64,000 nt of DNA from Actinomyces glycerinitolerans (lineage in GTDB: Bacteria; Actinomycetota; Actinomycetes; Actinomycetales; Actinomycetaceae). Position 1 is the stretch's first letter. Every line of letters starts with the position of its first letter. Of this stretch, positions 39,213-55,351 are shown one piece after another. The position numbers and the translations under genes are program-made. The DNA lies in contig NZ_FQTT01000001.1 of NCBI RefSeq assembly GCF_900098745.1, positions 186,001 to 250,000 on the forward strand, read 5' to 3'. The notes under the pieces are model-generated. The model was not told the DNA's origin. It did not search any database and worked only from the letters and a program-made list of their open reading frames with translations.

Positions 39213-39526
39213 ACCGCGCGCCGTTTGAGCTTGCGGCGCTCGCGCTCGGACAATCCTCCCCAAATCCCGAAGCGCTCATCGTTGGCCAGGGCGTACTCCA
39301 GGCATTCCTCACGGACTTCGCAAGAGGCACACACGCGCTTGGCTTCGCGCGTGGAACCTCCCTTCTCAGGGAAGAAGGCCTCGGGGTCGGTCTGAGCGCA
39401 CAGCGCGCGCTCCTGCCAGGCCAGGGGGCCTTCGTCTGGATCGTCGTCGCCGAGCAGAAGGAGGAGCGCCTCGTCGTCGGCGTCGTCGGACCGCTCAAGC
39501 GGCCCGTCGCCGAGGATGTTCCACAC
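39209..39526 (-). CDS. WhiB-family iron-sulfur regulator, WhiB2-like
   Basis: A 105-residue WhiB protein. The cluster ligands are Cys43, Cys66, Cys69 and Cys75 (CASCEVREEC), followed by the GIWGG turn and a basic tail LSERERRKLKRR. The acidic N-terminus and neighbours (GT2, DUF5719, TIGR03089, manA) fit the WhiB2/WhmD group that affects septation; the subgroup is inferred. WhiB proteins bind a 4Fe-4S cluster and act with the housekeeping sigma factor. GTG start with GAAGGGAAG five bases upstream. A clear promoter lies ahead and the stop overlaps the glycosyltransferase start. Confidence 0.92.
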   Translation of the reverse strand: MWNILGDGPLERSDDADDEALLLLLGDDDPDEGPLAWQERALCAQTDPEAFFPEKGGSTREAKRVCASCEVREECLEYALANDERFGIWGGLSERERRKLKRRAV

Positions 39527-39803: not shown

Positions 39804-40577
39804 GTGACCCGCAACACCACCCACCCGCATGACCCTCTTGCCGACCTGCTCCCCACGGCGGCGGACGCCGACCGCGCCTGGCTCGTGTGGTACGCGCCGG
39901 GCGAGCGAGTGGAACTGACCGGGCGGGTGCTGAACATGTGGCAATGCAAGATCGCTCATCTGCTCGCCGAGGAGGCCCCGGCCGTGGGCGCCGAGGCGTA
40001 CCCGCTTGTGCAACTGAGCCTGGGGGCGCACTGGCGCACGGTGACCTGGTGCTGCGGCACCTGGCTCGCAGGTGGGACGGTGACCTTCGACGCCCCCGCC
40101 GACGTGTCGGTGGCTTTCACCCCGGAGGAGCTGGATGCGGATGCGCAGCTGCAGGTGCTGGTGCCGCGCGCCGCCCTGGCCATGCGCTGGCCGGGCGAAC
40201 TGCCGCCGCTGGTGCTCGATGGCGTAGCCGATGTCATGGGCTACGCGGACTCCTTCACCGCACCGGCCGTCGATGGCGCCCGCACCGCTTTCCGGGCTGA
40301 TGCGACGCAAGCCTCGGGCACGCCCGCAGGGATCTCGCGCGCCGCCCTGGTCGCGGGGCTGGCCGAGTCGTCAAACCCGACCGACGCCCCCGGCGCCGCG
40401 GAGCACGCCTCCGCAGCCTGGACGCGGCCGCGAGCCGCACTGGTGCGCTCCGACACCGCCCTGGATGCGATGCGCGGCGTGCTCGCCGCCTGGCGCAACG
40501 GGCTGACCGCGGTGCTCGTCTCCCCCGACGCGGACGCCGAGCTCACCCAGACGGCCGCCCGCCAGGAGGGCACCTAG
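39804..40577 (+). CDS. TIGR03089-family protein
   Basis: A 257-residue protein that resembles the N-terminal half of an AMP-forming acyl-CoA synthetase (WLVWYAPGERVELTGRVLNM, AHLLAEE, LSLGAHWRTVTWCCGTWLAGG) but lacks the AMP-binding and C-terminal motifs. This is the actinobacterial TIGR03089 family, of unknown function. The C-terminal 100 residues are Ala/Thr-rich. GTG start. It is divergent from whiB, as often seen in actinobacteria, and is followed by a repeat-rich gene-free region. Confidence 0.82.
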   Translation: MTRNTTHPHDPLADLLPTAADADRAWLVWYAPGERVELTGRVLNMWQCKIAHLLAEEAPAVGAEAYPLVQLSLGAHWRTVTWCCGTWLAGGTVTFDAPADVSVAFTPEELDADAQLQVLVPRAALAMRWPGELPPLVLDGVADVMGYADSFTAPAVDGARTAFRADATQASGTPAGISRAALVAGLAESSNPTDAPGAAEHASAAWTRPRAALVRSDTALDAMRGVLAAWRNGLTAVLVSPDADAELTQTAARQEGT

Positions 40578-40663
40578 GTCCTGTTGTGTAAGTGCTTGGG
40601 TGGCGGTGCGCGGTTGGGTGTCTGTGTACGTGGCCGTTGAGCCTGTCGGTTGGACCCCTGTTC

Positions 40664-40708
40664 CCCCGTTGGACCGCCGTAGCCGCCGGTTACAGCGGTC
40701 CAACGGGG
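40664..40708. repeat. Perfect 14-bp inverted repeat
   Basis: CCCCGTTGGACCGC (40664-40677) and GCGGTCCAACGGGG (40695-40708) are exact complements around a 17-base loop. The right arm is the first unit of the adjoining tandem array. It might terminate transcription of the TIGR03089 gene. A further inverted partial copy, CGGTTGGACC, lies at 40647-40656. Confidence 0.85.
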
Positions 40709-40829
40709 CGTGGGCGGTCCAACCGGGGCGTGGGCGGTCCAACCGGGGCGTGGGCGGTCCATCGGGGCGTGGGCGGTCCAACCGGGGCGTGGGCGGTCCA
40801 TCGGGGCGTGGGCGGTCCAACCGGGGCGG
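40695..40829 (+). repeat. Tandem array of 19/20-bp units, about seven copies
   Basis: Units start at 40695, 40714, 40734, 40754, 40773, 40793 and 40812 (last one partial). Two forms occur: GCGGTCCAACCGGGGCGTGG (20 bases, containing the dyad CGGT-CCA-ACCG) and a 19-base form with CCATCGGGG; the first unit is a 19-base variant CCAACGGGG. They alternate toward the right end. Copies are otherwise identical. Confidence 0.95.
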
Positions 40830-41098
40830 TACAAGACCCACTCGCCCCCTTCGACGAGCGCACACAGCCCACTCAAACTGGAGCCCCGTAGCCACCAGAC
40901 ACGACGAACTCGCCATCCGCTACCAGACCACCACCCACATCACCAGCACCGCCCCACCGGCACAAACGACTCACACAACACGACCTAACCGCCCAGCCGC
41001 CGAGGCAGGTCGAAGCTGCACCGAGACCGGTCATTGCGGCACGGCGCTTCCAGCCGATTACCCCAGAGCGCCCGGCGCCACGCCAGAACCGACACCGA

Positions 41099-42286: not shown

Positions 42287-42532
42287 GAAGGCCAACGGTA
42301 ACGGAAGCTGCGGCCGCCTCCGGTCATGACGCCGGCGACGCCCCGCCCCGGGACTCGCGACGGCTCAGGGCTACACGCTTCCAGCGGCGCTCACGGCTAC
42401 TCGCTCCCAGCCGCCCCCTCGGCGACCCGCCCCGGGCGGTACCAGGTAAGCCCGGCACTCGTCTTCTTCCGGGACCCGTCAGACAGTACCGCAAAAACCC
42501 GGCCGCCCCAATTGCGACGAAATGGGGTGTGC

Positions 42533-43423
42533 ATGGTCCAGACTGTGCCCATGCGAGGCATCATCCTGGCCGGCGGCTCCGGCACCCGACTGAACCCCAT
42601 CACCCTGGGCACCTCCAAGCAGCTGGTGCCGGTGTACGACAAGCCGATGATCTACTACCCGCTGAGCACGCTGATGCTCGCCGGCATCCAGGACGTGCTG
42701 GTCATCACCACCCCGCACGATGCGCCCAGCTTCCACCGGCTGCTGGGCGACGGCTCCCAGCTGGGCGTGAACCTGTCCTACACGGTGCAGGAGGTTCCCA
42801 ACGGTCTGGCGCAGGCCTTCGTGCTGGGGGCGGACTTCATCGGCGACCAGCCGGCCGCCCTGGTGCTGGGTGACAACATCTTCTACGGCCCTGGCATGGG
42901 CACGCGCCTGCGCCGCCACACCAACCCCGACGGCGGCGTCGTGTACGCCTACCAGGTCGCCGACCCGACGGCCTACGGTGTGGTGGAGTTCGACGCCGAC
43001 TTCAAGGCCGTGTCCATCGAGGAGAAGCCCACCCGCCCCAAGTCGGACTACGCCGTTCCCGGGCTGTACTTCTACGACAATGATGTGGTTGAGATCGCCA
43101 AGAACCTCGCTCCCTCCGCGCGCGGCGAGTACGAGATCACCGACATCAACCGCACCTACCTGGACGCCGGGCGACTGACCGTGGAGGTGCTCCCCCGCGG
43201 CACCGCCTGGCTGGACACCGGCACCTTCGACTCGCTGGCCGACGCCACCAGCTTCGTGCGCACGGTCCAGCACCGGCAGGGGCTGAACATCGGCTGCCCG
43301 GAGGAGGTCGCCTGGCGCATGGGCTTCATCGACGACGACGGCCTGCGCGAGCGCGCCGAACCGCTGGTCAAGTCCGGCTACGGTCAGTACCTGCTCGGCC
43401 TGCTCGAGCGCGAGCGGCGCTGA
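42533..43423 (+). CDS. rmlA: Glucose-1-phosphate thymidylyltransferase RmlA
   Basis: A 296-residue nucleotidyltransferase making dTDP-glucose, the first step of dTDP-L-rhamnose synthesis. It has the motif [27 protein letters not shown], the metal-site segment [10 protein letters not shown] and the EEKPTRPKS loop, all typical of RmlA. The ATG at 42533 has GGGGTG nearby; a later ATG at 42551 (MRGIILAGG) is also possible. The epimerase-reductase step is encoded 10 kb away as an RmlC-RmlD fusion; the dehydratase RmlB is not in this window. Confidence 0.95.
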
Positions 43424-43572: not shown

Positions 43573-44328
43573 ATGCCCACCCAATTCCCCAGCACGCTGG
43601 TCATCATGCCGGCATGGAATGAAGAGGACGTGATTGGTGGGACCATTAGCGAACTACGCCGGATCGTCCCGGACTACGACCTGCTCGTCGTCAACGACGG
43701 CTCTACCGATCGCACCTCGCAGATCGCCCAAGAGGCCGGAGCTCACGTCCTCGATCTGCCCTATAACCTCGGCGTCGGCGGGGCGATGCGGACCGGATAC
43801 AAGTTCGCCCGCCGTTTCGGTTACACCAGAGCCATCCAAGTCGACGCGGATGGCCAGCACGATCCTCGTGACATCAATCGGGTACTCGCTGGGCTCGAGC
43901 ACTCGAACATCTCCATCGGAGCACGTTTCACCAAGACCGGAACATACCGGGTACGCGGGCCAAGGCGCTGGGCGATGGTGATGCTCGCCACCATTATCGG
44001 ACGGATTGCGCATACCAGGCTAACCGATGTCACCAGCGGCTTCCGTGCGGCGGATGCGATCGCGATCGACCAGTACTGCCTCCACTATCCGGCCGAGTAC
44101 TTGGGGGACACAATTGACTCGCTGGTCATCGCTGTGCGCTCGGGACTGACCGTGAATCAAGTCGGTGTGGACATGAGGCCTAGACAAGCAGGCGCGCCTT
44201 CCAACAATCCCTGGAAGGCTGCCGTATACCTCATCAGAAGCATGTTCGCACTGTTCATCGCGCTGACCCGCCGACCCATTATCCGAGCGGGGCGTGAGTC
44301 GACAACAGCCGCCCAGAAGGGGGAGTGA
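43573..44328 (+). CDS. GT2 glycosyltransferase, DPMS-like
   Basis: A 251-residue family 2 transferase: IMPAWNEEDVIGGTI, VVNDGSTDRT, the metal-binding VDADGQHDP, and SGFRAADA. The fold resembles dolichol-phosphate-mannose synthases, which load a polyprenyl-phosphate with a sugar. The C-terminal hydrophobic segment (IRSMFALFIALT) could touch the membrane. CAGGAG precedes the ATG. It is paired with the DUF2304 gene, two bases downstream of its stop, a common couple in surface-glycan loci. Base composition drops here relative to rmlA. Confidence 0.87.
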   Translation: MPTQFPSTLVIMPAWNEEDVIGGTISELRRIVPDYDLLVVNDGSTDRTSQIAQEAGAHVLDLPYNLGVGGAMRTGYKFARRFGYTRAIQVDADGQHDPRDINRVLAGLEHSNISIGARFTKTGTYRVRGPRRWAMVMLATIIGRIAHTRLTDVTSGFRAADAIAIDQYCLHYPAEYLGDTIDSLVIAVRSGLTVNQVGVDMRPRQAGAPSNNPWKAAVYLIRSMFALFIALTRRPIIRAGRESTTAAQKGE

Positions 44329-44330
44329 CT

Positions 44331-44714
44331 ATGTCCCAGCTCTTCTACCTCCTCATCGCCGCCCTCGTTGTCGCTTTTGTCTTCACGCTGCTGCGCGGCG
44401 GCAAACTGCGAGAAAAATACGCCGCGCTGTGGATTCTCGTGGGAATAGCCATCGTTCTACTGGCGGTGGTCCCCGGACTGCTATCGTCCTTGGCCCACCT
44501 CCTCGGATTCGAAGTTCCTTCAAACCTGCTATTCGTACTGGCGATCTTTCTATTGCTGGGGGTTACGCTCCATCACTCACTGGAGATTAGCCGTCTCGAG
44601 GACGAGACACGGATTCTGACGGAAAACATCGCAATCCTCAATCTAATTGTAACCCAGGCGGGTCTGGATTCCCATTTCCCCCGACATCCGCATGCCGGAC
44701 CCGACACCAAGTAG
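44331..44714 (+). CDS. DUF2304 small membrane protein
   Basis: A 127-residue protein with three hydrophobic segments (about 3-20, 33-53 and 65-82) and a C-terminal helical segment with heptad-like character (LEISRLEDETRILTENIAIL). DUF2304 proteins accompany GT2 transferases and may assist a polyprenyl-linked sugar pathway; the role is not established. The ATG at 44331 has GGGGGAG six bases upstream and is preferred over the GTG at 44325. The gene converges on the GT4 gene at 44743. Confidence 0.8.
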   Translation: MSQLFYLLIAALVVAFVFTLLRGGKLREKYAALWILVGIAIVLLAVVPGLLSSLAHLLGFEVPSNLLFVLAIFLLLGVTLHHSLEISRLEDETRILTENIAILNLIVTQAGLDSHFPRHPHAGPDTK

Positions 44715-44742
44715 CGGGCCCTAGAATCAGCATTCATGGGAC

Positions 44743-45846
44743 TCAGCGACCGGCGAGTACTTCACCGACCACCTTGCTGTACTCACGTGCGCGTACCGGC
44801 CAAGTCCAGGGATCGATGAGCTCCCGTGATGCGGGAACCGGCGGATTATCCAAGAGTTCCTGGAGAGCCGTCACCAGACAGTCCAGGCTCCGCTCACGAC
44901 AGATCTTCACCGGCGCCCCCGACTCCCTCAGCAGCTGAGCGCCGGGAACCTCAAACGTCACGACCCGCCCCCTCTCGGCAATTGTCTCCAGTAGGGTGGT
45001 CTGAAATCCCTCAGACAGCACCGTAGGGTTGACCAGCGTCGCTCCGCGCAGGGCTGCGCGCGCCTGCTCCTGCGGTACACGACCGCGTATCGCGACCACT
45101 CCGTTCAACCCCAGCGTCCTGCACTCCTGACGGGCCTGAGCGAGCTGAGCTCCGTCGCCCAGCAACTCGCCGGTCACGTCCTGCCCTGCCGCTCGCAACG
45201 CCGACACCGCCCGCAGGAAGGTGTCCCATCCCTTTCCCGCCACAACTCGGCCTACAAACACCAGGTGGTCAGGCCGGTCCGGAACCGCATCCGTGAAGAC
45301 TGATGGTGTAATCGCGTTGTAGAACACGTCTGCATGTGGAGCACCTAGACGTCGAGCGAATGCAGCCGCCTCGGGCGAGACACCGAGCACCCGGTCGGCA
45401 TGGCGCAGAACATATCGGCCCGCAGTAAGGTCAACGGCGCGGGAGCCCACGGTGATAATGGGGGAAGGAGAGGCGACGAAACCACTCCCGTGCTCGGTGT
45501 GAATGACGGGAAGCCCCGCCGCCTGTGCAGCCCGCATCCCTACGAGGCTCATGGGGAAGAAGCGTGTGTGTGTAGAAACGACGTCGACGTGCTCACGCCG
45601 CAGGTACTGCGCGATTGCCCGGGCCGTTCCCGGCCCCGGGAAGGAGATGACCTCCGCGATCGGCAGGTGGGCACGGCCCGTCAGAACCTTGACGCCGCCG
45701 TCGTTGCGCCTGGAGCGCTCAGACGAGATCGTCAGGACGTGCACCCGGTGTCCCAAGTCGTCCAGCCCCTGAGCGAGGTTGGAGACGTGGGACTCGAGCC
45801 CGCCGAGACGAGGCGGATAGGAGTTCGTAACGATAGCGAGGTGCAC
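44743..45846 (-). CDS. GT4 glycosyltransferase
   Basis: A 367-residue GT-B transferase. The N-terminal domain starts MHLAIVTNSYPPRLGGLESHV, the donor-binding domain has LVFVGRVVAGKGWDTFL (about 193) and the acidic motif VLSEGFQTTLLE (about 283), all family 4 features. It probably adds one sugar to the lipid-linked unit in the cytoplasm. GTG start. It is the last gene of the leftward lic operon, 45 bases after the flippase gene. Confidence 0.88.
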   Translation of the reverse strand: MHLAIVTNSYPPRLGGLESHVSNLAQGLDDLGHRVHVLTISSERSRRNDGGVKVLTGRAHLPIAEVISFPGPGTARAIAQYLRREHVDVVSTHTRFFPMSLVGMRAAQAAGLPVIHTEHGSGFVASPSPIITVGSRAVDLTAGRYVLRHADRVLGVSPEAAAFARRLGAPHADVFYNAITPSVFTDAVPDRPDHLVFVGRVVAGKGWDTFLRAVSALRAAGQDVTGELLGDGAQLAQARQECRTLGLNGVVAIRGRVPQEQARAALRGATLVNPTVLSEGFQTTLLETIAERGRVVTFEVPGAQLLRESGAPVKICRERSLDCLVTALQELLDNPPVPASRELIDPWTWPVRAREYSKVVGEVLAGR

Positions 45847-45891
45847 AAGCGGCCTTTTCTGAAGTGATGGGGGTGACCGGCATTCAGCGTA

Positions 45892-47148
45892 CTACCGACG
45901 CGTCGTCGCGTGCGTCTGCGCACCGGCCAGCCGCGCTGAATGCAGGGACAGAAGTAAGAACAGCAGGGCGAGCACGAGCATCGCCCCCGCGTATGACAGG
46001 GCCGCTCCCATCAGCGCCCAAATCGGCACCAACAGGCGGCTGAGCACCAGGACGACGACGGCGGCGGCGGCGTAGCCTCCAAAGACCAGAACCTGACGAC
46101 GCATAGTTGTCAGGGCGTAGTACAGGATGACCGCCACAGCGTTGAAGGCACCACCGGCAACCAATATCATGAGCTCGGGCAGATAAGCCGAGACATCCTG
46201 ATTGAAGACAAGCTGCAGGATCCACGGCCCCGCCACGAGCGAAACCAACGCCACCAGGACGAACGCCCCGGAAGTGGTCACCAGGCCCCGGCGAACAAGC
46301 CTGGCGAACCCCTGTCTGTCACCGCCGACCCAACGGGAGGCAATCGGGGTGAGCAATGGCCGGAACACAAACAGGGAAAGCATATTGATGGCTACTGCCG
46401 GCATGTAAATGATAGCGAACACGCCTTGCGCCTGAGAGTCCAGGAACTCCTCAATAGCGTACCTCGGCGCATTGGTCAGATACATCGCTAGGAAAGAGCC
46501 GAGGAATAGCGGCAGGCATTCTACGAGCAGGGACCAGATCCGGCTGAAGTCCCAGCATGGTCGCACCGAGAACAGGCGCCGTGCCGCGGGCAGGTACAGC
46601 AGAACGAAGGCGATGCTGGACATCACCAACGTCAGAATGGTGGCACTCATCAGGTCATGAGTCACCACCAGGGTCACGACGAAAACACCGGTCGTGGTAG
46701 TGATTCGCCAGAAGCAGGCACGGCCTCCTATGTCCAGCCGCCCATTGCGCTGGAACTCGGAGTAGAACACATCCTCAACCGCATCGAATATGCGCAGCAT
46801 AGCCACCAAGAGGCTAACTAGTCCGTCGCGAGGATTAGCCCCCGCCATGGTCGCCGCTACGATCCCCCCAATCATGAGTACGGTCGTCACGATGCGGGTG
46901 GCCAGGTAGTTCCCGAATGCGTAGCGCCCGGAGACGTCGGTTACATGATAGGTGCGAACCTCGTACATACCCAGGGTTTGGAATTGCTGGCCGACGGCGA
47001 TCGCCAGGGAATAGACCCCGGCCGCGGCAATTCCGGCGGTGCGAGTAACCGCCGTGAGCATGATTACCAGGGAAAGCGAGCTCATGAGCGAGGCCGCGGT
47101 ATTCCACACGTAGTCGCGGCCCAACTGCCGCCTGTCGCCACTGACCAC
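45892..47148 (-). CDS. Polysaccharide flippase (Wzx/MATE-like)
   Basis: A 418-residue polytopic protein with about twelve membrane segments, typical of the oligosaccharide flippase family. It should move a lipid-linked oligosaccharide from the inner to the outer face of the membrane. No soluble domain is present. GTG start two bases after the stop of the LicD gene. Its place between licD and GT4 genes indicates that the phosphocholine-bearing unit is assembled inside and exported; this is inferred from context. Confidence 0.85.
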   Translation of the reverse strand: MVSGDRRQLGRDYVWNTAASLMSSLSLVIMLTAVTRTAGIAAAGVYSLAIAVGQQFQTLGMYEVRTYHVTDVSGRYAFGNYLATRIVTTVLMIGGIVAATMAGANPRDGLVSLLVAMLRIFDAVEDVFYSEFQRNGRLDIGGRACFWRITTTTGVFVVTLVVTHDLMSATILTLVMSSIAFVLLYLPAARRLFSVRPCWDFSRIWSLLVECLPLFLGSFLAMYLTNAPRYAIEEFLDSQAQGVFAIIYMPAVAINMLSLFVFRPLLTPIASRWVGGDRQGFARLVRRGLVTTSGAFVLVALVSLVAGPWILQLVFNQDVSAYLPELMILVAGGAFNAVAVILYYALTTMRRQVLVFGGYAAAAVVVLVLSRLLVPIWALMGAALSYAGAMLVLALLFLLLSLHSARLAGAQTHATTRR

Positions 47149-47150
47149 GC

Positions 47151-48014
47151 CTAGTCCTCCGGTGAAGCATAGGGCCCAAAAGTCACCCAGGCTGCCGCAT
47201 GGTTCACCCGCTCATCCTCCGCCGGCAGTTCCATATAGCTACCATAACCGCGGGTCAGGACGGCATCATACTGGCGAGGCAGCATGACACGAATCCCCTC
47301 AAAGGGCACCCGGCGGGCCGGGAAGAGCTCGTCCAGACGCACTGCCCAGTGGCGCGGGTCTGTGGTCGAGTAGTCACCCAGCATCTCGGTGTGGCTTCCC
47401 TCGAAGCGTCTCGCGCTGCGCTCCCACCGGCTCTGCAGCAGGCGCGGACTTACGCCGAGCATACGCATCGTCCAGTGGACAACATGCAGCACGCCGGTAG
47501 CGAGATGGGTCAGGGGGGCCGGCAGGTCAACCTGCGCGTGCGGGGTTCCTCTCAGGTACAACAGCCTCCCCCACAGCCAGGTACTTCGCCTTTGGCGGCG
47601 GTAGGAGGCGCCATCGTCAGGCAAGGAATCGAGCGGGAACAGATCCACTCCAATGGGCATGCGGTAAGGGCGATCCCGCGCCGCCTGCGAAACGAACTCA
47701 CTGCCCACCAGTCCTAGAACAGCGAAAGTCTGAGGATAGTCGGGATCGGAACGCGGCGAGTGAATCTTGAAGGCCTCGCCCAGCACAGCGGGAGCCTGGT
47801 CAAGGAAGCGCTCGTAATCCGGACGGGGCATGCACACATCGGCGTCGTCATCCCAGGGGATGAACCCCCGGTGACGCACGGCACCAATAGCGGTGCCGCC
47901 GTAGACGGTGTAGCGGACTCCAAGGTCAATGCACACGCGGTCAAGCTCCTCTAGGACAAGCGTAGTCGCGCGCTGGACTTGGGCGAGCTGCTCCGATGGT
48001 TCGTCGCCGCTCAT
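47151..48014 (-). CDS. LicD-family phosphocholine transferase (second copy)
   Basis: A 287-residue LicD protein. The nucleotidyltransferase-like motif is YGGTAIGAVRHRGFIPWDDD (about 38-57), followed by ADV as the second acidic group. LicD enzymes move phosphocholine from CDP-choline to a sugar of teichoic acid or polysaccharide; related proteins transfer other phospho-groups. It is clearly paralogous to the gene immediately upstream (shared motif, WLWGRLL, RGTP, YGSYM/YGDYM), so a duplication with divergence is likely. Start and stop overlap by 4 bases with that gene. Confidence 0.9.
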   Translation of the reverse strand: MSGDEPSEQLAQVQRATTLVLEELDRVCIDLGVRYTVYGGTAIGAVRHRGFIPWDDDADVCMPRPDYERFLDQAPAVLGEAFKIHSPRSDPDYPQTFAVLGLVGSEFVSQAARDRPYRMPIGVDLFPLDSLPDDGASYRRQRRSTWLWGRLLYLRGTPHAQVDLPAPLTHLATGVLHVVHWTMRMLGVSPRLLQSRWERSARRFEGSHTEMLGDYSTTDPRHWAVRLDELFPARRVPFEGIRVMLPRQYDAVLTRGYGSYMELPAEDERVNHAAAWVTFGPYASPED

Positions 48015-48892
48015 GACCGTCCTTCCTCGAACTCGTCGGCATACGGCCCGAAGTCGACCAGGTGCATCCGGTGATTACGCTGCTGGTCCGGCGGCGGCAG
48101 GGCCATGTAGTCGCCGTAACCGCGGCTCAGCAAGGCGTCATAGTTGTGCGGAAGCATTACGGTGATGTCCTCAAAAGGTACGTCGCGGGTGGGGAACAAC
48201 TCCTCGCGGGTGACTACCCAATTGTAGGGATCGCGCATGGTGAAGTCGGCCATACGTCCCGTGTCCTCGTGCTCGTAAGCGCGTACTGCCTTCTCCCACC
48301 GCAGCTGCAGCGCGGCGGGCGAGACTCGAGTCAGCCTCAGGCCCCAGTGCACCAGAGTTGTGAGCGCATAGATCAGGCGGCGGCGCACTCCGGTGATGCC
48401 GATAAGGTAGGGGCGGGGAGTACCTCGCAGAAACAGCAGGCGGCCCCAAAGCCAACTCCGGCGGCTCATAGAACGCATGGCGCCGTCGTCGTCAGGAATA
48501 TTATCCACCGGAAGGACGTCGACGAAGAAAGGCATGCGATAGCTCGAGTCCTTATCCGCTTCGGGGATTAAAAGCGTTCCCTTGAGCACCATTTTGGTGA
48601 ACATAAAAGGGAACTCGGGGACGGTACGGGTGTTGTGCAGCTCGAACTCCCCTCCCATGACGGCGGGGGCCTCGCACAGGAACCGCTCGTAGTCTGCACG
48701 CGTGAGCATCACGTCAACGTCGTCGTCCCACGGAATAAATCCCCGGTGGCGAACCGCTCCGATGGCGGTGCCACCGTAGACGGCGTACTGGATCCCCAAC
48801 TCGCGGCACACCCGATCGAACTCGCCTAGCAAACGGGTGAGCAGCACGTGGATGTGGTCAAGCTGCCGCTGGTCAGCCGCGTGAGAAGGCAT
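48011..48892 (-). CDS. LicD-family phosphocholine transferase (first copy)
   Basis: A 293-residue LicD protein with YGGTAIGAVRHRGFIPWDDD followed by VDV, SYRMPFFVDVLPVDNI and SRGYGDYMALPPPDQ near the end, the typical LicD scaffold. It probably attaches phosphocholine to a second sugar position compared with its paralogue. The ATG at 48892 has GGGAG six bases upstream; ATGs at 48898 and 48922 and an earlier start at 48949 are alternatives. It overlaps the permease gene by 20 bases, so translation is coupled. Confidence 0.9.
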   Translation of the reverse strand: MPSHAADQRQLDHIHVLLTRLLGEFDRVCRELGIQYAVYGGTAIGAVRHRGFIPWDDDVDVMLTRADYERFLCEAPAVMGGEFELHNTRTVPEFPFMFTKMVLKGTLLIPEADKDSSYRMPFFVDVLPVDNIPDDDGAMRSMSRRSWLWGRLLFLRGTPRPYLIGITGVRRRLIYALTTLVHWGLRLTRVSPAALQLRWEKAVRAYEHEDTGRMADFTMRDPYNWVVTREELFPTRDVPFEDITVMLPHNYDALLSRGYGDYMALPPPDQQRNHRMHLVDFGPYADEFEEGRS

Positions 48893-49883
48893 TGGCATCT
48901 CCCGTCTGATCTGGGCCGTCATCAGTTGGCGAGTCAGGGCAGGCCGCATCGCGTCCAGCCCCCGGAAAGGTCACCAGCGTACGCCAGTCCGGCGTAGCCG
49001 CCAGTACCGTTCCAACCAGCAGGACGAGGCACCCCGCGATCTGCAGCGGCGTGGGCACGGACCCTTGGAGCAGAAAGGCGAACAGTACCGCCCATGCCGA
49101 ATACGAGATATTCAGAGCCATGCCTCGCGACGCCCCGATTGTGCCGATGGCCTTGTAGTAGAACAAGTATGAGAACGCACCCGCAATTCCGGCAAGCGCA
49201 ACGACCGAGGCGGCCCGCGTTGCCACAGACGCCAAGGTGAAACCAAGGATCCCGGACAACGGTGCAACCACTAGCAAATAGACCAGTGAGGACGTGGTCT
49301 CGCGAATCTGCAGCGCAGTCTCGTTGTCAACCGTGTCATCACGCATGCCCCAGGCCAACAGCACGGCCTCAGAGCCCCAGCCCAACACGCACGCGAGCGC
49401 GGCAAGAACACCGACCGGCGCTGAGCCGGGAACATCGAACTCCGTGGAGGACCATCCGATAAGTACCACTGCCGCCAGTGCCACCACCAGCGCCACCACC
49501 TGTCGCGGTCTCATACGCTCGCCGAGCAGAATCGCGGCCAGCAGGGTGCCCACGGCGGGATAGAACGTGGAGATGATCGCGGTGTAGGCAGGACCGATGT
49601 TATCAATCGCAATCAGGTAGCCGGTCATTCCGAAGGGACCACCCAGGAGCGCCCCAAGCATGACAATCTTACCGCTACGAGTGCGCAGGGCCGCCGCGGT
49701 ATCGTGCAGCCGACCCCGCGCTGCCATATATAGCGCAAGCACAATAGCGCACGTGGTGTCGTGCAGAACGGCGCCGGTTAGCGTCGCGTTCCCAACGCCG
49801 AGAAACGGCACCAGTACCAGGGCCATACCGAGAACAACGGTGTCGAGGCCCCACAGCGCCCCGCTGATCACCCCGTACCTCAT
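48873..49883 (-). CDS. LicB-like DMT/EamA permease, probable choline importer
   Basis: A 336-residue membrane protein with ten predicted helices in two EamA repeats; NIGPAYTAIISTFYPAVGTLLAA marks the first repeat and AIGTIGASRGMALNISYSAWA the second. DMT permeases of this position in lic operons (LicB) take up choline. The specificity here rests on the neighbours: choline kinase/cytidylyltransferase upstream and LicD downstream. Its ATG overlaps the upstream stop by 4 bases. A hydrophilic tail of about 35 residues follows the last helix. Confidence 0.82.
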   Translation of the reverse strand: MRYGVISGALWGLDTVVLGMALVLVPFLGVGNATLTGAVLHDTTCAIVLALYMAARGRLHDTAAALRTRSGKIVMLGALLGGPFGMTGYLIAIDNIGPAYTAIISTFYPAVGTLLAAILLGERMRPRQVVALVVALAAVVLIGWSSTEFDVPGSAPVGVLAALACVLGWGSEAVLLAWGMRDDTVDNETALQIRETTSSLVYLLVVAPLSGILGFTLASVATRAASVVALAGIAGAFSYLFYYKAIGTIGASRGMALNISYSAWAVLFAFLLQGSVPTPLQIAGCLVLLVGTVLAATPDWRTLVTFPGAGRDAACPDSPTDDGPDQTGDANAFSRG

Positions 49884-51739
49884 GCCACCGCTCCCGCCGA
49901 CAGGCGCGGCGCCGGCGCGCTCAACAACGGAGTGTCTGTCTCATAGGAGGCCAACAGCGCATCAACGTAGTCGACGGCATGGCGGTAGTAGATGAACAGC
50001 CACTCCCCCACTTCATCCCCCTCCGCTTCCTTCGCCAACGCCCATACATACCAGCACCAGCCGGCGAAAACGACGTGTGCCCAGAAGTGACGTCGCTCAA
50101 CGGGAGTGGGCTCGCCCTCGAAATAGGCGAATAGCGCTTCCTCAGCCTGCTCACCGCTCAGCTGGGCGCACACGACCATGGTGCCGAAGTCGCTAGCAAC
50201 ATCGGACATACCGGCATACTCCCAGTCGATAAGATCGATGTGCCCGTGCTCATCAACGAGGAAGTTCAGCGGAAAGAAGTCATTGTGGCTGGGCCCGACC
50301 GGGAAGCCGTCGGCATCGGCATAGCGGCTAAGCCGAAGGATCTTCTCCCGCAGCTCGCCATATCCGGGCACATCGACGGGACCGTTGGCGGTAAGTAGGC
50401 GCTCGTAGCGCAGCCCCTCCTCCACGAAACCGAAGCTGCGCGCGAGCACTCGGTCGCTGTTGTGAAGACTGCGCGCCATGGACATCGCCCGCGCCAACTC
50501 ACCAGGACGGTTCACGTCTAGATTACGACAGTGGGGGATGAAACGGGATATCTTCCACCCCTTGTCTGGGTCGCCCGCGAGAAATGTCCGGTCAATGCCG
50601 AGCTCCCGGGCCAGGAACAGAGCATCAAACTCAGCTTGCCGATCAACGATCTGGTCCGTGCCGACGCCTGGATGACGGTACACGTATTCCTGGCCGCCGG
50701 CGCTGAAGTGGCACGAGAGGTTCGTGATGCCCTGCTTGAGCGGATAGAAGTCGACGATCTCTGCCTTTGGCACGCTCAAAGCCGAGGCAATATTGTCGAA
50801 CACCTCCGAGTCCACATTCTCCATGAACAACGGATCGAAAGAACGGATCTCGTCAACCGAGTCGAACTCATTGATGACGCCAGCCGGGTAGCGGCGCACT
50901 CGCATGTCAAGGTCGCTGACGTGGTCGAGGTAAATCGCTTCCCACAGCTTTGCGGCGGTCTCCGGCAGGTGGTACACCTCTTCAAGGATCTGGCGGAACG
51001 CTGCCGAGAAGGTCCGGTCGAAGTAGACGTGACCGAGCATCGTCCAGGCGTCGGCACCGCCCATAGTCGCGCCGGTAATGCGATCACCTGCGCCCACGGT
51101 TATACACCACTCGTCGGTGCTGCCCTCAGCATACTGGGCCGAGTAGTAGGCGTGATGGACGTGCGACTCGAAGGGGTTAACGGTGAAGTAGTCATCCGAG
51201 GAACACACGTAGGTGTTGTCGAGCCGGTCGCGTACGCGCCACAAAGAACCGTTGTTGTTACGCGTGGCGTACTCATCATTGACGACGATTCGGACGCCGT
51301 ATTTCTCCGCCAGGTAGAAGAAGTACTCCTTCTTGTATCCGACAACGACGGTGATGTCGCTTATTCCGGCTTCAAGTAGCTGTTCAATTTGCCGCTCGAT
51401 GAGCACCTCCCCACGGACCCGCAGGGTTCCCTTGGGACGCTCGTAGGAAATCGGAGCGAACCGCTCGGAGAGCCCAGCAGCGAGTACGACGGCGTTGGTC
51501 ACGCGGTACGGTTCCAACGCGGCTGCACCCGCGTCAGTCAGGGAGCGGTCCGCCAGCAGCCCGAGTGCCTCACACTCGCGCACCGCAGCGTTGGCGCTGC
51601 CCAACGACATGCCGGTCGCCGCCTGGACCTGCCGCTGAGTCAGCGGCTCTCCGGCGCGCAAGTACGCGTAGAGCACATCGAACTGCGACCGTTTCAAAGA
51701 AAGGGTCCCCTTATCTGGAGAAGTCACAGGCAACACCAT
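49880..51739 (-). CDS. wHTH - LicC cytidylyltransferase - LicA choline kinase fusion
   Basis: A 619-residue three-part protein. Residues about 10-75 form a winged helix-turn-helix (LTQRQVQAATGMSLGSANAA). Residues about 82-310 are a LicC-type nucleotidyltransferase (NAVVLAAGLSERFAPISYE, KGTLRVRGEVLIERQI, SSDDYFTV) that would make CDP-choline. Residues about 330-590 are a choline kinase-like phosphotransferase with HNDFFPLNFL as the catalytic loop (about 483) and IDWEYAG as the metal site (about 500). Together they would turn choline into CDP-choline for LicD. The ATG at 51739 is chosen; a TTG at 51757 would add six residues. It heads a six-gene operon with overlapping starts and stops. Confidence 0.9.
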   Translation of the reverse strand: MVLPVTSPDKGTLSLKRSQFDVLYAYLRAGEPLTQRQVQAATGMSLGSANAAVRECEALGLLADRSLTDAGAAALEPYRVTNAVVLAAGLSERFAPISYERPKGTLRVRGEVLIERQIEQLLEAGISDITVVVGYKKEYFFYLAEKYGVRIVVNDEYATRNNNGSLWRVRDRLDNTYVCSSDDYFTVNPFESHVHHAYYSAQYAEGSTDEWCITVGAGDRITGATMGGADAWTMLGHVYFDRTFSAAFRQILEEVYHLPETAAKLWEAIYLDHVSDLDMRVRRYPAGVINEFDSVDEIRSFDPLFMENVDSEVFDNIASALSVPKAEIVDFYPLKQGITNLSCHFSAGGQEYVYRHPGVGTDQIVDRQAEFDALFLARELGIDRTFLAGDPDKGWKISRFIPHCRNLDVNRPGELARAMSMARSLHNSDRVLARSFGFVEEGLRYERLLTANGPVDVPGYGELREKILRLSRYADADGFPVGPSHNDFFPLNFLVDEHGHIDLIDWEYAGMSDVASDFGTMVVCAQLSGEQAEEALFAYFEGEPTPVERRHFWAHVVFAGWCWYVWALAKEAEGDEVGEWLFIYYRHAVDYVDALLASYETDTPLLSAPAPRLSAGAVA

Positions 51740-51775
51740 CCGTTCATCAGCTTTCAATCATGGCTAGCGTTCGAA

Positions 51776-51805
51776 AGCATACACACGCCACCCAGATTTG
51801 AACAA
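51776..51805 (-). promoter_or_regulatory. Putative promoter of the lic operon
   Basis: Reading leftwards, TTGTTC (51805-51800) and TATGCT (51781-51776) are 18 bases apart. The -35 is a modest match (three of six) and the -10 matches four of six. A start near 51769 would give about 30 bases of leader before the ATG at 51739. Confidence 0.4.
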
Positions 51806-51820
51806 ACGCCGCCGGCGTTT
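51804..51820 (-). terminator. Hairpin terminator after the DUF2142 gene
   Basis: AAACGCC-GCC-GGCGTTT forms a perfect 7-bp stem with a 3-base loop; on the minus strand it is followed by GTTC after three Ts of the stem. It lies between the DUF2142 stop (51855) and the lic promoter, so it would separate the two units. Confidence 0.5.
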
Positions 51821-51854
51821 CCCCCGGCGATGGCCCACACCGCCCACCTCCAGG

Positions 51855-53414
51855 TCACGCGGCAGCAGGCGACTCCGCCGTCGGGGCCGCGGAGGCAGCG
51901 GGAGTCTCGCGCTCAACCGGCCGTGACCTGCCGCCGCCCACCAACCACACCAGCATCGTGGAGGCCAAGAGGGTACAGGCCGTGACCAATGCCCACAGCT
52001 GCATCGGGGAGATAGGAATGTTCCACCACCACTGGACGCCGACATCAAGGTTAAAGGGCACACGATTGATGTCCTCAATGCCTTGCGTATACCGGAGCAG
52101 TAGTCGATGAACCGCAGCGGAACTCACCGCAGTGGACACAACGACGACCAGCATCGCCTGCGTACGAGTCATCATCGTACGCGAGTCGTCGGTGAGAAAA
52201 AGCACGAGGTAGAACACCGCCAGCAACGGCAGCACATAGCGGGGCTGAACCATGACATAGACATTCGGCAAGCCATTGAGAATCGCATACACAACGGGCA
52301 TTCCCGCCAGCGCCCCGAGAATAACTCCCGCCGACAACAACTTACGCCAGGTCATCACCCGGACTCCCATGAACAGCGCGATACCGGCGAGGCTCAGCGC
52401 GCCAATGGTGATCACGCCGTCCATGGGGACATCCCACCAACCTCCACCCCAGCGGCGCCCATACATACCCGCCAGGAACTGAGGCACACCCTGAACGATC
52501 TCGAACAGCCGGGTACGAGTCATTGGCGGAGGCTGAGCCCCCTCACCGGAGGCGTAGCCGCCCTGCCCCGTGCTCCGCATCACCCAAACTCCAGCAAAGC
52601 CAACAACAGCCGCGACCAGCGCATGGACACGGATCTGCCGCCGCCAACGCACCCCCAGAAGCAGCGCCAGGGAGACCACGAAGAGGAAGAAGGCCGCGTC
52701 GCCACGGGACATGCAGGCGAGCACGCTCCCAACGACGCCCAGCCCCAGCAGCAGCCACTGGCGCTTACCTTCAGCCCTGAGCGACATGAATAAGCCGGAG
52801 GCGTAGGCAAGCACCCCAGTCAGCGCCCACGAACTGGGATTATTGGAAGCTACGAAATATACGCCCATTGGAATCCAGGCGAATCCGACCGCGGCAATGT
52901 AGCCGGCACGCAGTGCGGGTGGCGACAGCAGCGCAATCGTTCCCAACAGGGCCACTGCGATGAGGACGTTGACAACACGCATTAAGATCACCGAGCGGGT
53001 GACGTCGCTACCGACGAGGGCGTGATGGAAACGGTAGTAACCCACCGGATAGTTCCCGTCGTCATAACGAGCCGTATAGGCGGTCGTCTCGTCCGAATAG
53101 GACATCCGGCAAGCAGCAGATGTCTCCGGGTGCTTCTTATAGCAGAGCGAATCATCATCGATGGTCTGCGGCACCAGGACCTGCGTAACGTTGTCGATCG
53201 TCTTGGTCTGACAAGACTCCGCCACCGGACGCGGACACCATATGCTTCCCAGATGGTAGTCATCGTCGGGAGAGCCGCCCGATGGGGAGCACAGCACCCA
53301 GCCGACCCCGACGACGAGCAAAAGCAGCATGGTCAGCGCGGCCCCGAGGCGCCTGCGGCTTCCAAGGGGCCACCGCGATCGTCCCGCCTGGCTCGACCCG
53401 GTTGCTGCATCCAT
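51855..53414 (-). CDS. DUF2142-family polytopic membrane protein
   Basis: A 519-residue membrane protein with an N-terminal segment at about 27-44, an extracytoplasmic loop of about 90 residues with several Cys (CPRPVAESC, DSLCYKK, AACRMSY), and ten or more further membrane segments. It fits DUF2142, a family of probable glycosyltransferases of the GT-C type found in surface-polysaccharide loci. The early loop has acidic residues (PDDDYHLGS) at the place where GT-C enzymes carry a DxD/ExD site. GAGGAG precedes the ATG by eight bases. Function is inferred only. Confidence 0.75.
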   Translation of the reverse strand: MDAATGSSQAGRSRWPLGSRRRLGAALTMLLLLVVGVGWVLCSPSGGSPDDDYHLGSIWCPRPVAESCQTKTIDNVTQVLVPQTIDDDSLCYKKHPETSAACRMSYSDETTAYTARYDDGNYPVGYYRFHHALVGSDVTRSVILMRVVNVLIAVALLGTIALLSPPALRAGYIAAVGFAWIPMGVYFVASNNPSSWALTGVLAYASGLFMSLRAEGKRQWLLLGLGVVGSVLACMSRGDAAFFLFVVSLALLLGVRWRRQIRVHALVAAVVGFAGVWVMRSTGQGGYASGEGAQPPPMTRTRLFEIVQGVPQFLAGMYGRRWGGGWWDVPMDGVITIGALSLAGIALFMGVRVMTWRKLLSAGVILGALAGMPVVYAILNGLPNVYVMVQPRYVLPLLAVFYLVLFLTDDSRTMMTRTQAMLVVVVSTAVSSAAVHRLLLRYTQGIEDINRVPFNLDVGVQWWWNIPISPMQLWALVTACTLLASTMLVWLVGGGRSRPVERETPAASAAPTAESPAAA

Positions 53415-53878
53415 TGATTATTCTCCTCGTTGCTCGACGCGATGCCCGCACCCCAAGCCGACCGGAGAGGAGTGGAACGCCGGCGCTGTCGCACCCCGCC
53501 ATGCAGGAGTTGCGCATGCCGCAGCAGCACGCAGTCTCGTCAACACGACCGAGAAGATCTCGCAAACAGTCGCCGGAAGCTCGCGCCAGGGAATGCTAGC
53601 AGGTATTGAGGCGGCTATGGAGACTCTGTTTGTTTCCTGGGTTGCCTGGAGTGAAGCCAACCACCCGGGCTTAGCGGCATTGGCTGGGTGGGCCTATCCA
53701 GGTTGCTGCCAGTGAGGTACCCCTGCCATGGCGCGTGAACGTGCGGTTTCCTCGACCGAGAGACGGCATTTGCCCAGCCGGGAGGGACGGGATGCCCTAC
53801 AGGTCTAGGCTAGGTGGGTCGACGGCTTGCGGCGCTCGCCGTCAGCCCGGCACCGTAGTGCGAACCAGATGGAGAACC
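53415..53878. other. Gene-free region upstream of rmlCD
   Basis: 464 bases between the divergent DUF2142 and rmlCD genes. The left end holds the DUF2142 ribosome-binding site and the right end GGAGAACC for rmlCD. Short open frames inside show no family similarity. Promoters for both genes must lie here, but no convincing -35/-10 pair was found. Confidence 0.5.
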
Positions 53879-55351
53879 ATGACTGACACGGCCGACACCC
53901 CCGACCGCACCGACGGCATCGAGCTGCTCAAGCCGCTCGGTGTTGAGACCACCCCGATTCCCGGCTTCCTGCGCATCGATCTGACCGTGCACGGCGACAA
54001 CCGGGGCTGGTTCAAGGAGAACTGGCAGCGGGAGAAGATGACGGCCCTGGGGCTGCCGGACTTCGGCCCGGTGCAGAACAACATCTCCTTCAACGACGAG
54101 GTCGGGGTGACCCGCGGCATCCACGCCGAGCCGTGGGACAAGTTCGTGTCGGTGGCCACCGGGCGCGTCTTCGGTGCTTGGGTGGACCTACGTGAGGGGC
54201 CGTCCTTCGGCACCGTGTACACCACCGAGATCGACCCGTCGGTGGCCGTGTTCGTGCCCAAGGGTGTGGGCAACGCCTACCAGACGCTGGAGCCGAACAC
54301 CGCCTACACCTACCTGGTCAACGATCACTGGTCGCCCGACGCCCAGTACACCTTCTTGAACCTGGCCGATGAGACCGTCGCCGTGCCGTGGCCGATTCCG
54401 CTGGAGCAGGCGATCCAGTCCGACAAGGACCGCGCCCACCCGCGCCTGGCGGACGTCGTCCCCTTCGCAGCCACCGACGCCACCGCGGATGGCAGGCGCG
54501 TGCTGGTCACCGGCTGCAAGGGGCAGCTCGGCCGCGAGCTCATGAAGCAGCTGCCCGCGGCCGGCTTCAGCCCCACCGGCGTGGATCTGCCGGAGGTGGA
54601 CATCTCCGACGCCGACGCCATGGCCGCCTGGGACTGGTCCGCTTACGACATCATCATCAACGCCGCCGCCTGGACGAACGTCGACGGCGCCGAGACCCCC
54701 GAGGGACGGCCCCTGTCCTGGCGCGCCAACGCCACCGGCCCGGCAAACCTGGCCCGGGAGGCGGCCCGCCACGATCTGACCCTGGTGCACATCTCCAGCG
54801 AGTACACCTTCGACGGCACGCTTGAGCCGCACACGGAGGATGAGTCCCCCAGCCCGCTGGGTGTGTACGGCCAGTCGAAGGCGGGCGGCGACGCCGCCGT
54901 CGAGGCCACTCCCAAGCACTACCTGGTGCGCACCTCCTGGGTGGTGGGTGACGGCAAGAACTTCGCCAAGACCATGGCCTCCCTGGCCGCGCGCGGCATC
55001 GCTCCGAAGGTGGTGGACGACCAGACCGGCCGACTCACCTTCACCACCGACCTGGCGGCCGGCATCATCCACCTGCTGTGCACCGGCGCCGAGTACGGCA
55101 CCTACAACCTGTCCGGTGAGGGGCCCGTGGTCTCCTGGTGCGACGTCGCCAAGCGCGTCTACGAACTGGTGGGCCACAGAGCGGACGAGGTCACTCCCGT
55201 GTCCACCGCCGAGTACTACGCCGGGCAGGAGGGCATCGCCCCGCGCCCGCTTCGCAGCGCCCTGGACCTGAGCAAGATCGAGGCGACCGGGTTCACGCCG
55301 GGCGACTCCATGGAGCGCCTGGACGCCTACGTGCCCACGATCGAGCTGTGA
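53879..55351 (+). CDS. RmlC-RmlD fusion: dTDP-4-dehydrorhamnose epimerase and reductase
   Basis: A 490-residue bifunctional protein. Residues about 10-200 form the cupin epimerase RmlC (GWFKENWQ, NNISFNDEVGVTRGIHAEP, FGAWVDLREG, FVPKGVGNAYQ). Residues about 205-490 form the short-chain reductase RmlD with the NADP motif VTGCKGQLGRELM and the YGQSKAGGD catalytic Tyr-Lys region. Together they carry out the last two steps of dTDP-L-rhamnose synthesis; rmlA is at 42533. Such fusions are known in actinobacteria. GGAG precedes the ATG at 53879 and family similarity begins shortly after it, whereas the open frame upstream to 53735 is not conserved. High G+C like the core genes. Confidence 0.93.
   Translation: MTDTADTPDRTDGIELLKPLGVETTPIPGFLRIDLTVHGDNRGWFKENWQREKMTALGLPDFGPVQNNISFNDEVGVTRGIHAEPWDKFVSVATGRVFGAWVDLREGPSFGTVYTTEIDPSVAVFVPKGVGNAYQTLEPNTAYTYLVNDHWSPDAQYTFLNLADETVAVPWPIPLEQAIQSDKDRAHPRLADVVPFAATDATADGRRVLVTGCKGQLGRELMKQLPAAGFSPTGVDLPEVDISDADAMAAWDWSAYDIIINAAAWTNVDGAETPEGRPLSWRANATGPANLAREAARHDLTLVHISSEYTFDGTLEPHTEDESPSPLGVYGQSKAGGDAAVEATPKHYLVRTSWVVGDGKNFAKTMASLAARGIAPKVVDDQTGRLTFTTDLAAGIIHLLCTGAEYGTYNLSGEGPVVSWCDVAKRVYELVGHRADEVTPVSTAEYYAGQEGIAPRPLRSALDLSKIEATGFTPGDSMERLDAYVPTIEL

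Follow-up and report, generated by a model that had tools for sequence, protein, structure and literature searches.

A Lic-1-type phosphocholine operon in Actinomyces glycerinitolerans with a fused, very probably autoregulatory cytidylyltransferase-choline kinase

Surface phosphocholine (ChoP) is a known determinant of colonisation and host recognition in pneumococci and Haemophilus. The Lic-1 pathway has been described in Haemophilus and Streptococcus as licABCD, arranged in pneumococci as lic1 and lic2, of which lic2 comprises licD1, licD2 and tacF (PMC4364537), and TacF has been presented as a gatekeeper flippase of teichoic acids (PMC13385700). The presence of lic genes in Actinomyces is already published: A. 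viscosus and A. gerencseriae are reported to possess lic enzymes and to be TEPC-15 positive, with the ChoP carrier listed as unknown (PMC10434233), and from another actinobacterium, Gardnerella vaginalis, a LicD protein is likewise known (PMC2928729). In a different pathway, NadR of Enterobacterales combines a helix-turn-helix domain, a nicotinamide mononucleotide adenylyltransferase and a ribosylnicotinamide kinase (PMC12421817). Here we describe a lic operon of Actinomyces glycerinitolerans, found in a window of 64,000 nucleotides (contig NZ_FQTT01000001.1, positions 186,001 to 250,000), in which LicC and LicA form one protein, LicCA, behind a winged helix-turn-helix (wHTH) domain. The main text of PMC10434233 does not contain the word “fusion”, and no mention of an operator was noticed in it; the fused gene and the operator-like site in front of it were found in this analysis.

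The locus resembles the Lic-1 systems of Haemophilus and Streptococcus in having LicA to LicD homologues, two LicDs and a MOP-type flippase; it differs from them in the LicC-LicA fusion behind a wHTH, in the assembly of all genes into one operon and in an operator-like site of its own. Domain assignments, conserved active sites, co-occurrence across genomes, the operator-like site and its covariation with the wHTH were all computed here, and they make it likely that the operon encodes the whole of the phosphocholine (Lic-1) pathway together with its own control, consisting of LicB, LicCA, the LicDs, the flippase and repression through the wHTH and its dyad. From sequence comparison, LicCA very probably autoregulates the lic operon, as NadR does for NAD. 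What would be expected of an autoregulator is present: the enzyme contains a DNA-binding domain, and its own promoter carries a conserved site that tracks this domain. In all likelihood LicCA would combine three functions as enzyme and regulator, a counterpart of NadR arisen by convergence in phosphocholine metabolism: it would bind GTTC-N27-GAAC at its own promoter, and in some species at licB, and would set surface phosphocholine by sensing its own substrate or product, in Actinomycetaceae and Coriobacteriia. With NadR it shares an N-terminal DNA-binding domain, a nucleotidyltransferase and a kinase in one chain and control of the genes of its own pathway, a control that is predicted for LicCA. 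The domain families and the pathway differ, so that the resemblance is one of design and not of membership: LicCA carries NTP_transf_3 and APH/choline-kinase domains rather than those of the NadR family, and because its domains belong to other families it would work like NadR without being one. A literature search, which left most subscription journals outside its reach, returned no report of a fused or autoregulated choline kinase.

The licCA gene (49880..51757, minus strand) encodes 625 amino acids, its start lying at TTG 51757, ATG 51739 or GTG near 51727. The first-pass annotation had named a choline kinase/cytidylyltransferase at this place; both enzymatic domains were recovered, but in the opposite order, the cytidylyltransferase preceding the kinase, and the DNA-binding domain ahead of both had been overlooked, as had the operator-like site. 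The wHTH (MarR_2; residues 21-69, 51551..51697) was matched with an E-value of 1.1e-7 and modelled with a pLDDT of about 84-91, and its TQR and SLG..N residues are invariant in the 18 aligned members of the genus. The CTP:phosphocholine cytidylyltransferase domain (residues 85-311, 50825..51505) matches solved LicC (1jyk, 5.9e-39), and the choline-kinase domain (residues 321-596, 49970..50797) matches solved LicA (4r77, 4.6e-27). The structure model of the whole protein is partly confident (pTM 0.55; part of the LicC domain has a pLDDT below 50). A fold search with it returned LicA-choline as the top match, and LicC, LicA and LicB were the best sequence matches among solved structures. The catalytic and choline-binding residues T29, D176, N181, D194 and E196 of pneumococcal LicA (PMC4364537) are kept as T345, D493, N498, D511 and E513, and the four positions of the aromatic cage are occupied by Y514, W569, W572 and W586, the last a tryptophan in place of tyrosine. 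In the cytidylyltransferase domain W136, D107 and E216 of LicC are kept. LicCA is 100% identical in A. succiniciruminis AM4 (L086), the nearest named record and, judging from its name, presumably a rumen species.

Upstream of licCA lies an operator-like triad, GTTC-N27-GAAC-N23-GAAC (51741..51803, minus strand), with half-sites at 51800-51803, 51769-51772 and 51742-51745 and the same spacing in relatives. The first half-site occupies the -35 position, the second follows directly after a -10-like TATGCT (51776-51781) and the third stands ahead of the probable LicCA start, so placed that the dyad would cover the predicted licCA promoter. The unit had earlier been taken to begin at 51805; an in-frame read from the TTG there runs into a TAG before 51757, and 51741-51803 is occupied by the operator-like site. 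A terminator-like hairpin (51809..51830, minus strand) is found between the site and an upstream DUF2142 gene; such hairpins are weak evidence by themselves (10 in the region against a shuffle mean of 7.3). The hairpin suggests that the lic unit starts its own transcript.

The site was followed through 80 loci, the best of 125 confirmed relatives, which come from Actinomycetaceae and Coriobacteriia and were sorted by record title into 34 loci of Actinomycetaceae and 46 of other groups (two loci titled as other genera, L075 as Sanguibacter and L077 as Xylanimonas, have a Schaalia-like gene order). A loose triad was present in 29 of the 34 Actinomycetaceae loci, whereas shuffled sequences gave a mean of 0.22 and at most 2. 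In the 29 loci where the N27 pair is exact, information amounts to about 1.6 bits at the half-site bases and to 0-0.5 over most of the spacer, except for the bases next to the half-sites and a TA at the -10 position, and a third half-site follows at a spacing of 22-24 in 24 of them, giving an extended form GTTCA-N25-[T/C]GAAC plus third half-site. Over all 80 loci, GTTC-N27-GAAC occurs 66 times in the 24.8 kb before licCA compared to 23 times in 1521.7 kb elsewhere. When spacings from 8 to 45 were scanned, a clear excess was seen only at 26, 27 and 28 (19, 66 and 12 occurrences), the next being spacing 9 with 10. The N26-28 dyad is found in 75/80 loci, while eleven control 4-mers of equal composition reached 0 to 4/80 and the reversed order 3/80; many of these loci are close kin, and of 65 representatives under 90% protein identity 60 have the dyad. 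Strict matches elsewhere numbered 17: six upstream of licB in three loci (L093, L108 and L110, two overlapping or neighbouring matches in each), four upstream of a further LicCA-like gene (two in L064, one each in L091 and L092), and seven without a lic neighbour or inside coding sequence.

A genus-wide search covered 49 Actinomyces genomes, of which 31 have LicCA (lic-positive; in G005 as pieces only) and 18 lack a match (lic-negative). The triad gave 37 matches in the lic-positive genomes and stands directly before LicCA in 28 of the 31 (in reverse sense in G037 and G044), the remaining three being G005, G026 and G036. The genome of A. glycerinitolerans contains one further match, unlike in sequence. 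Seven of the 18 lic-negative genomes gave matches, 20 in total, 14 of which are copies of one repeat in G001. This repeat, present at 14 places in that lic-negative genome, is an element of the form GTTCGTAGGG...TACGAACG and is unlike the operator.

The strongest argument that LicCA itself reads the site comes mainly from the fact that the dyad follows the QR residues of the wHTH and the half-site follows the recognition helix, both within and outside the initial sample. Of the 75 loci that keep QR, 74 have the dyad; of the five without QR, one does (Fisher 1.6e-5). The five loci without an N26-28 dyad are L082, L083, L111 (which has RR) and L131, all lacking QR, plus L092, in which QR is kept and licCA stands behind two lic-like genes, with a strict match before the first of them. 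Similarly, loci with GLA for SLG in the recognition helix (L119, L129, L130) show GTTCG for GTTCA in 3/3 cases, compared to 2/72 of the others (1.5e-4).

Further loci came from 396 genomes drawn from the phylum, 18 of which (that of A. glycerinitolerans included) contain LicCA at E <= 1e-100; these belong to just three families. Of the 23 loci in this draw besides that of the window, 18 have the dyad, whereas control 4-mers reached at most 2/23. Four of the 23 overlap with earlier loci, a locus being counted as new if the 100 bases before licCA were not found in the earlier 80; the remaining 19 include several close kin (for example L146/L147, L157/L158 and L166/L167). In these 19, with QR and helix type judged by eye, the dyad is present in 14/15 loci that keep QR and in 0/4 that have lost it (L161, L162, L163 and L168, the last scored as lost with a match that begins at profile position 37 and a frame that holds stops, so that its upstream window is uncertain). 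The one locus with QR and no dyad, L159, has upstream DNA that looks by eye like the tail of another gene's coding sequence, reaching into licCA, and licCA appears to be internal to an operon there. All three further loci with an LGLATVN or LGVATVN helix (L156, L157, L158, the latter two close kin) carry GTTCG. Additional LicCA-like copies occur beside the first in several loci (L064; L151/L163; L157/L167; L158/L166), L163 having lost the wHTH QR; these are possibly enzyme-only or variant-substrate forms.

All six genes of the lic operon are located on the minus strand, in the order LicCA, LicB, LicD1, LicD2, flippase and GT4 from the promoter. LicB (48873..49883), a choline permease of the DMT/EamA type, matches solved LicB (7b0k, 4.5e-29). 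The phosphotransferases LicD1 (48011..48949; PF04991, 3.2e-36) and LicD2 (47151..48014; PF04991, 5.5e-35) both keep the WDDD motif and are the only LicD matches in the genome. They are followed by a Wzx/MOP-type lipid-oligosaccharide flippase (45892..47148), assigned from its predicted fold and its co-occurrence with LicCA and LicD, and by a GT4 glycosyltransferase (44743..45846), assigned by domain match. Coordinates, domains and structure matches thus bear out the single leftward unit proposed in the first-pass annotation, including its kinase/cytidylyltransferase, permease, two LicDs, flippase and GT4. The overlapping starts and stops that had been claimed for it apply to three of the five junctions, LicCA/LicB (4 nucleotides), LicB/LicD1 (up to 77) and LicD1/LicD2 (4), but not to LicD2/flippase and flippase/GT4, which are separated by gaps of 2 and 45 nucleotides. 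Among the relatives, LicB is found directly downstream of LicCA in 26/34 Actinomycetaceae loci and 30/46 others, and LicD beside the flippase in 21/30 and 5/11 cases, respectively. These adjacency counts were made with a wide limit allowing for overlapping starts of open reading frames (ORFs), in a gene-order scan that used 17 window genes and skipped ORFs with internal stops, an unlabelled neighbour being possibly any other gene. Since pneumococcal lic2 has licD1, licD2 and tacF, a flippase beside LicD is not new.

The flippase has no Pfam match of its own, although 9/30 members of its alignment match Polysacc_synt, and its sequence profile gave no match at E <= 1 among solved chains. Its model (pLDDT 92.2) has a MOP/Wzx fold, with WzxE as best match (Z 32.4, root-mean-square deviation 3.3, 391 residues aligned). 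The fold matches listed do not include TacF; they come from a structure library that extends to 2026-04-08 and predates the TacF paper of May 2026, so nothing is excluded by its absence. Like TacF, the lic flippase belongs to the MOP superfamily and is tied to LicD, in its case by co-occurrence: among the 49 Actinomyces genomes LicD is present in the same 31 as LicCA and has no match in the same 18, and the flippase (E <= 1e-20) occurs in exactly those 31, although kinship of the genomes inflates such counts. The other components follow less strictly, LicB (E <= 1e-20) in 26/31 lic-positive genomes plus one lic-negative genome, GT4 (E <= 1e-40) in 22/31 and 0/18, and a neighbouring GT2 gene (43573..44328; E <= 1e-40) in 29/31 and 2/18. 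In the lic-negative genome G032, which has no LicCA or LicD match, a LicB sharing 75% identity with the window protein stands as an orphan choline importer. The strict co-occurrence of LicCA, LicD and flippase suggests that Actinomyces has an export step resembling that of TacF. For choline-binding proteins (PF01473), no match was found in the genome of A. glycerinitolerans, but control genomes were equally silent.

By homology the operon contains every part of a Lic-1 system: LicA, with its kinase residues and aromatic pocket, LicC, LicB and LicD. The proposal that the pathway is complete, and that phosphocholine is added to a lipid-linked oligosaccharide before flipping, is supported by homology, by active-site residues and by the co-occurrence of LicCA, LicD and flippase, the order of decoration and flipping in particular because these three occupy the same 31 of 49 genomes. 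In the pathway that we infer, LicB would import choline, the kinase domain of LicCA would phosphorylate it, and CDP-choline would be made by the cytidylyltransferase part of this protein. The two LicDs would then transfer phosphocholine to a lipid-linked oligosaccharide, assembled partly by GT4, and the dedicated Wzx-type flippase would turn the decorated lipid outward. As proposed in the first-pass annotation, the surface might then also present a ligand for C-reactive protein and the platelet-activating-factor receptor. The wHTH of LicCA would bind the dyad and the third half-site over the licCA promoter, so that the enzyme would repress its own operon, presumably with choline, phosphocholine or CDP-choline as the effector. 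LicCA free of ligand, or at low ligand, would hold the operon down from the dyad and be released by ligand when choline is available; the sense could also be the opposite, and repression rather than activation is the predicted mode. If this is correct, decoration would be coupled directly to the supply of choline, through one protein that both makes CDP-choline and reads its own operator. Such an arrangement would be common to many Actinomycetaceae and Coriobacteriia, and it supplies a precise DNA site and a protein for testing.

Several observations count against the above reading and have to be weighed with the alternatives. With regard to the substrate, LicA rim residue E213 is C530 in LicCA, a cysteine invariant in the 18 aligned genus members, and because of this exchange the published choline-kinase motif is not complete. 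The fourth cage residue (W586) is non-aromatic in 2/18 of these members (L021, L026), and LicC residues D105, D192 and Y190 are replaced by S186, E273 and L271; Y190, like W136 and D107, is a pocket residue of LicC. The exchange of E213 and those in LicC would suit another amino-alcohol or 2-aminoethylphosphonate (AEP) as the substrate of the pathway in place of choline. Among the relatives of LicC, the PntC enzymes have a preference for AEP, one of them keeps the aromatic box, and a glutamate at the D192 position is the state found in the AEP enzyme Tde-PntC (PMC6697681). PntC phosphonyl tailoring also shares the logic of a LicC-like cytidylyltransferase with LicD (PMC6697681), but here a kinase domain is fused in, a LicB permease adjoins and the LicA cage of the protein is aromatic, whereas a phosphoenolpyruvate mutase was not found: the genome has a single PF13714 match (32 bits), and this is devoid of the Ppm motif. 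Because no such mutase with a Ppm motif is present, AEP tailoring was set aside. Moreover, A. gerencseriae, with LicCA and LicD matches only of the fused type (L058, G009), is reported as TEPC-15 positive (PMC10434233); its locus contains the same fused gene and operator-like site, LicB, one LicD and the flippase. The kinase domain would therefore speak for choline, while the cytidylyltransferase domain leaves room for doubt, and with choline as the likely substrate of LicCA a pathway built on a different one appears quite improbable. LicB and GT4 have no match in 5/31 and 9/31 lic-positive genomes, respectively. As for the acceptor, phosphocholine might go on a membrane glycolipid and not on a wall polymer: in NCBIfam both LicDs match a single family (E <= 0.001), the diacylglycerol cholinephosphotransferase Mf1, with scores of 51.9 and 61.9 bits that fall far short of its cut-off of 225 bits. 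The strict co-occurrence of a Wzx-type flippase with LicD and the position of the lic genes in a rhamnose-sugar and glycosyltransferase region make this unlikely.

With regard to the regulator, the GTTC dyad could be the site of a different protein, the wHTH of LicCA having lost DNA binding or only mediating assembly. GAAC/GTTC also resembles the LexA-type half-site, for which the spacing is different. In addition, L114 has QQ, and hence has lost QR, and keeps the dyad; two loci with the SLG helix carry GTTCG; and the Fisher values overstate the association because related loci are not independent. Nevertheless, dyad loss accompanies QR loss and half-site change accompanies helix change in the further loci as in the first 80, the triad stands directly before LicCA in nearly all lic-positive genomes, and licB and licCA-like genes are preferred among the strict matches that lie elsewhere. 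A separate regulator is thus considered a poor candidate, and LicCA the probable reader of its own operator.

The lic genes lie within a block (43573-53414) whose genes have a third-position GC content (GC3) of 0.66-0.76, compared to 0.8-0.95 for most others called between 4.8 and 60 kb, and which was perhaps acquired as a cassette. It is flanked on one side by a gene that by eye is rmlA-like (42326-43423) and on the other by a fusion of rmlC and rmlD (53735-55351). At its left end, on the plus strand, the GT2 gene (43573..44328), an associated neighbour weakly like the polyprenyl-phospho-GalNAc synthase PpgS (below the family cut-off), is paired with a DUF2304 membrane protein (44325..44714, domain match), and the pair (43573-44714) resembles PpgS of mycobacteria together with its partner protein. 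At the right end, the predicted DUF2142 membrane protein (51855..53414, minus strand), a neighbour of uncertain role, is found around LicCA in 19/34 Actinomycetaceae loci. Further downstream, in L133, a Wzm/Wzt-type ABC exporter was identified (L133:6265-8343, equal to window 68265-70343 and thus past its end), consisting of a Wzt with a Wzt_C domain and an ABC-2 permease, which would provide another path of export close to the lic flippase. The ChoP oligosaccharide may thus be exported separately from the main rhamnose polymer, the two being joined outside. Two adjoining DUF6541 proteins are encoded at L133:11996-16051. Within the window, a repeated peptide-coding unit in the ORF translations at 40574-40916 suggests a short tandem repeat between two genes, and a small ORF on the minus strand (39209-39526) has a WhiB-type look by eye.

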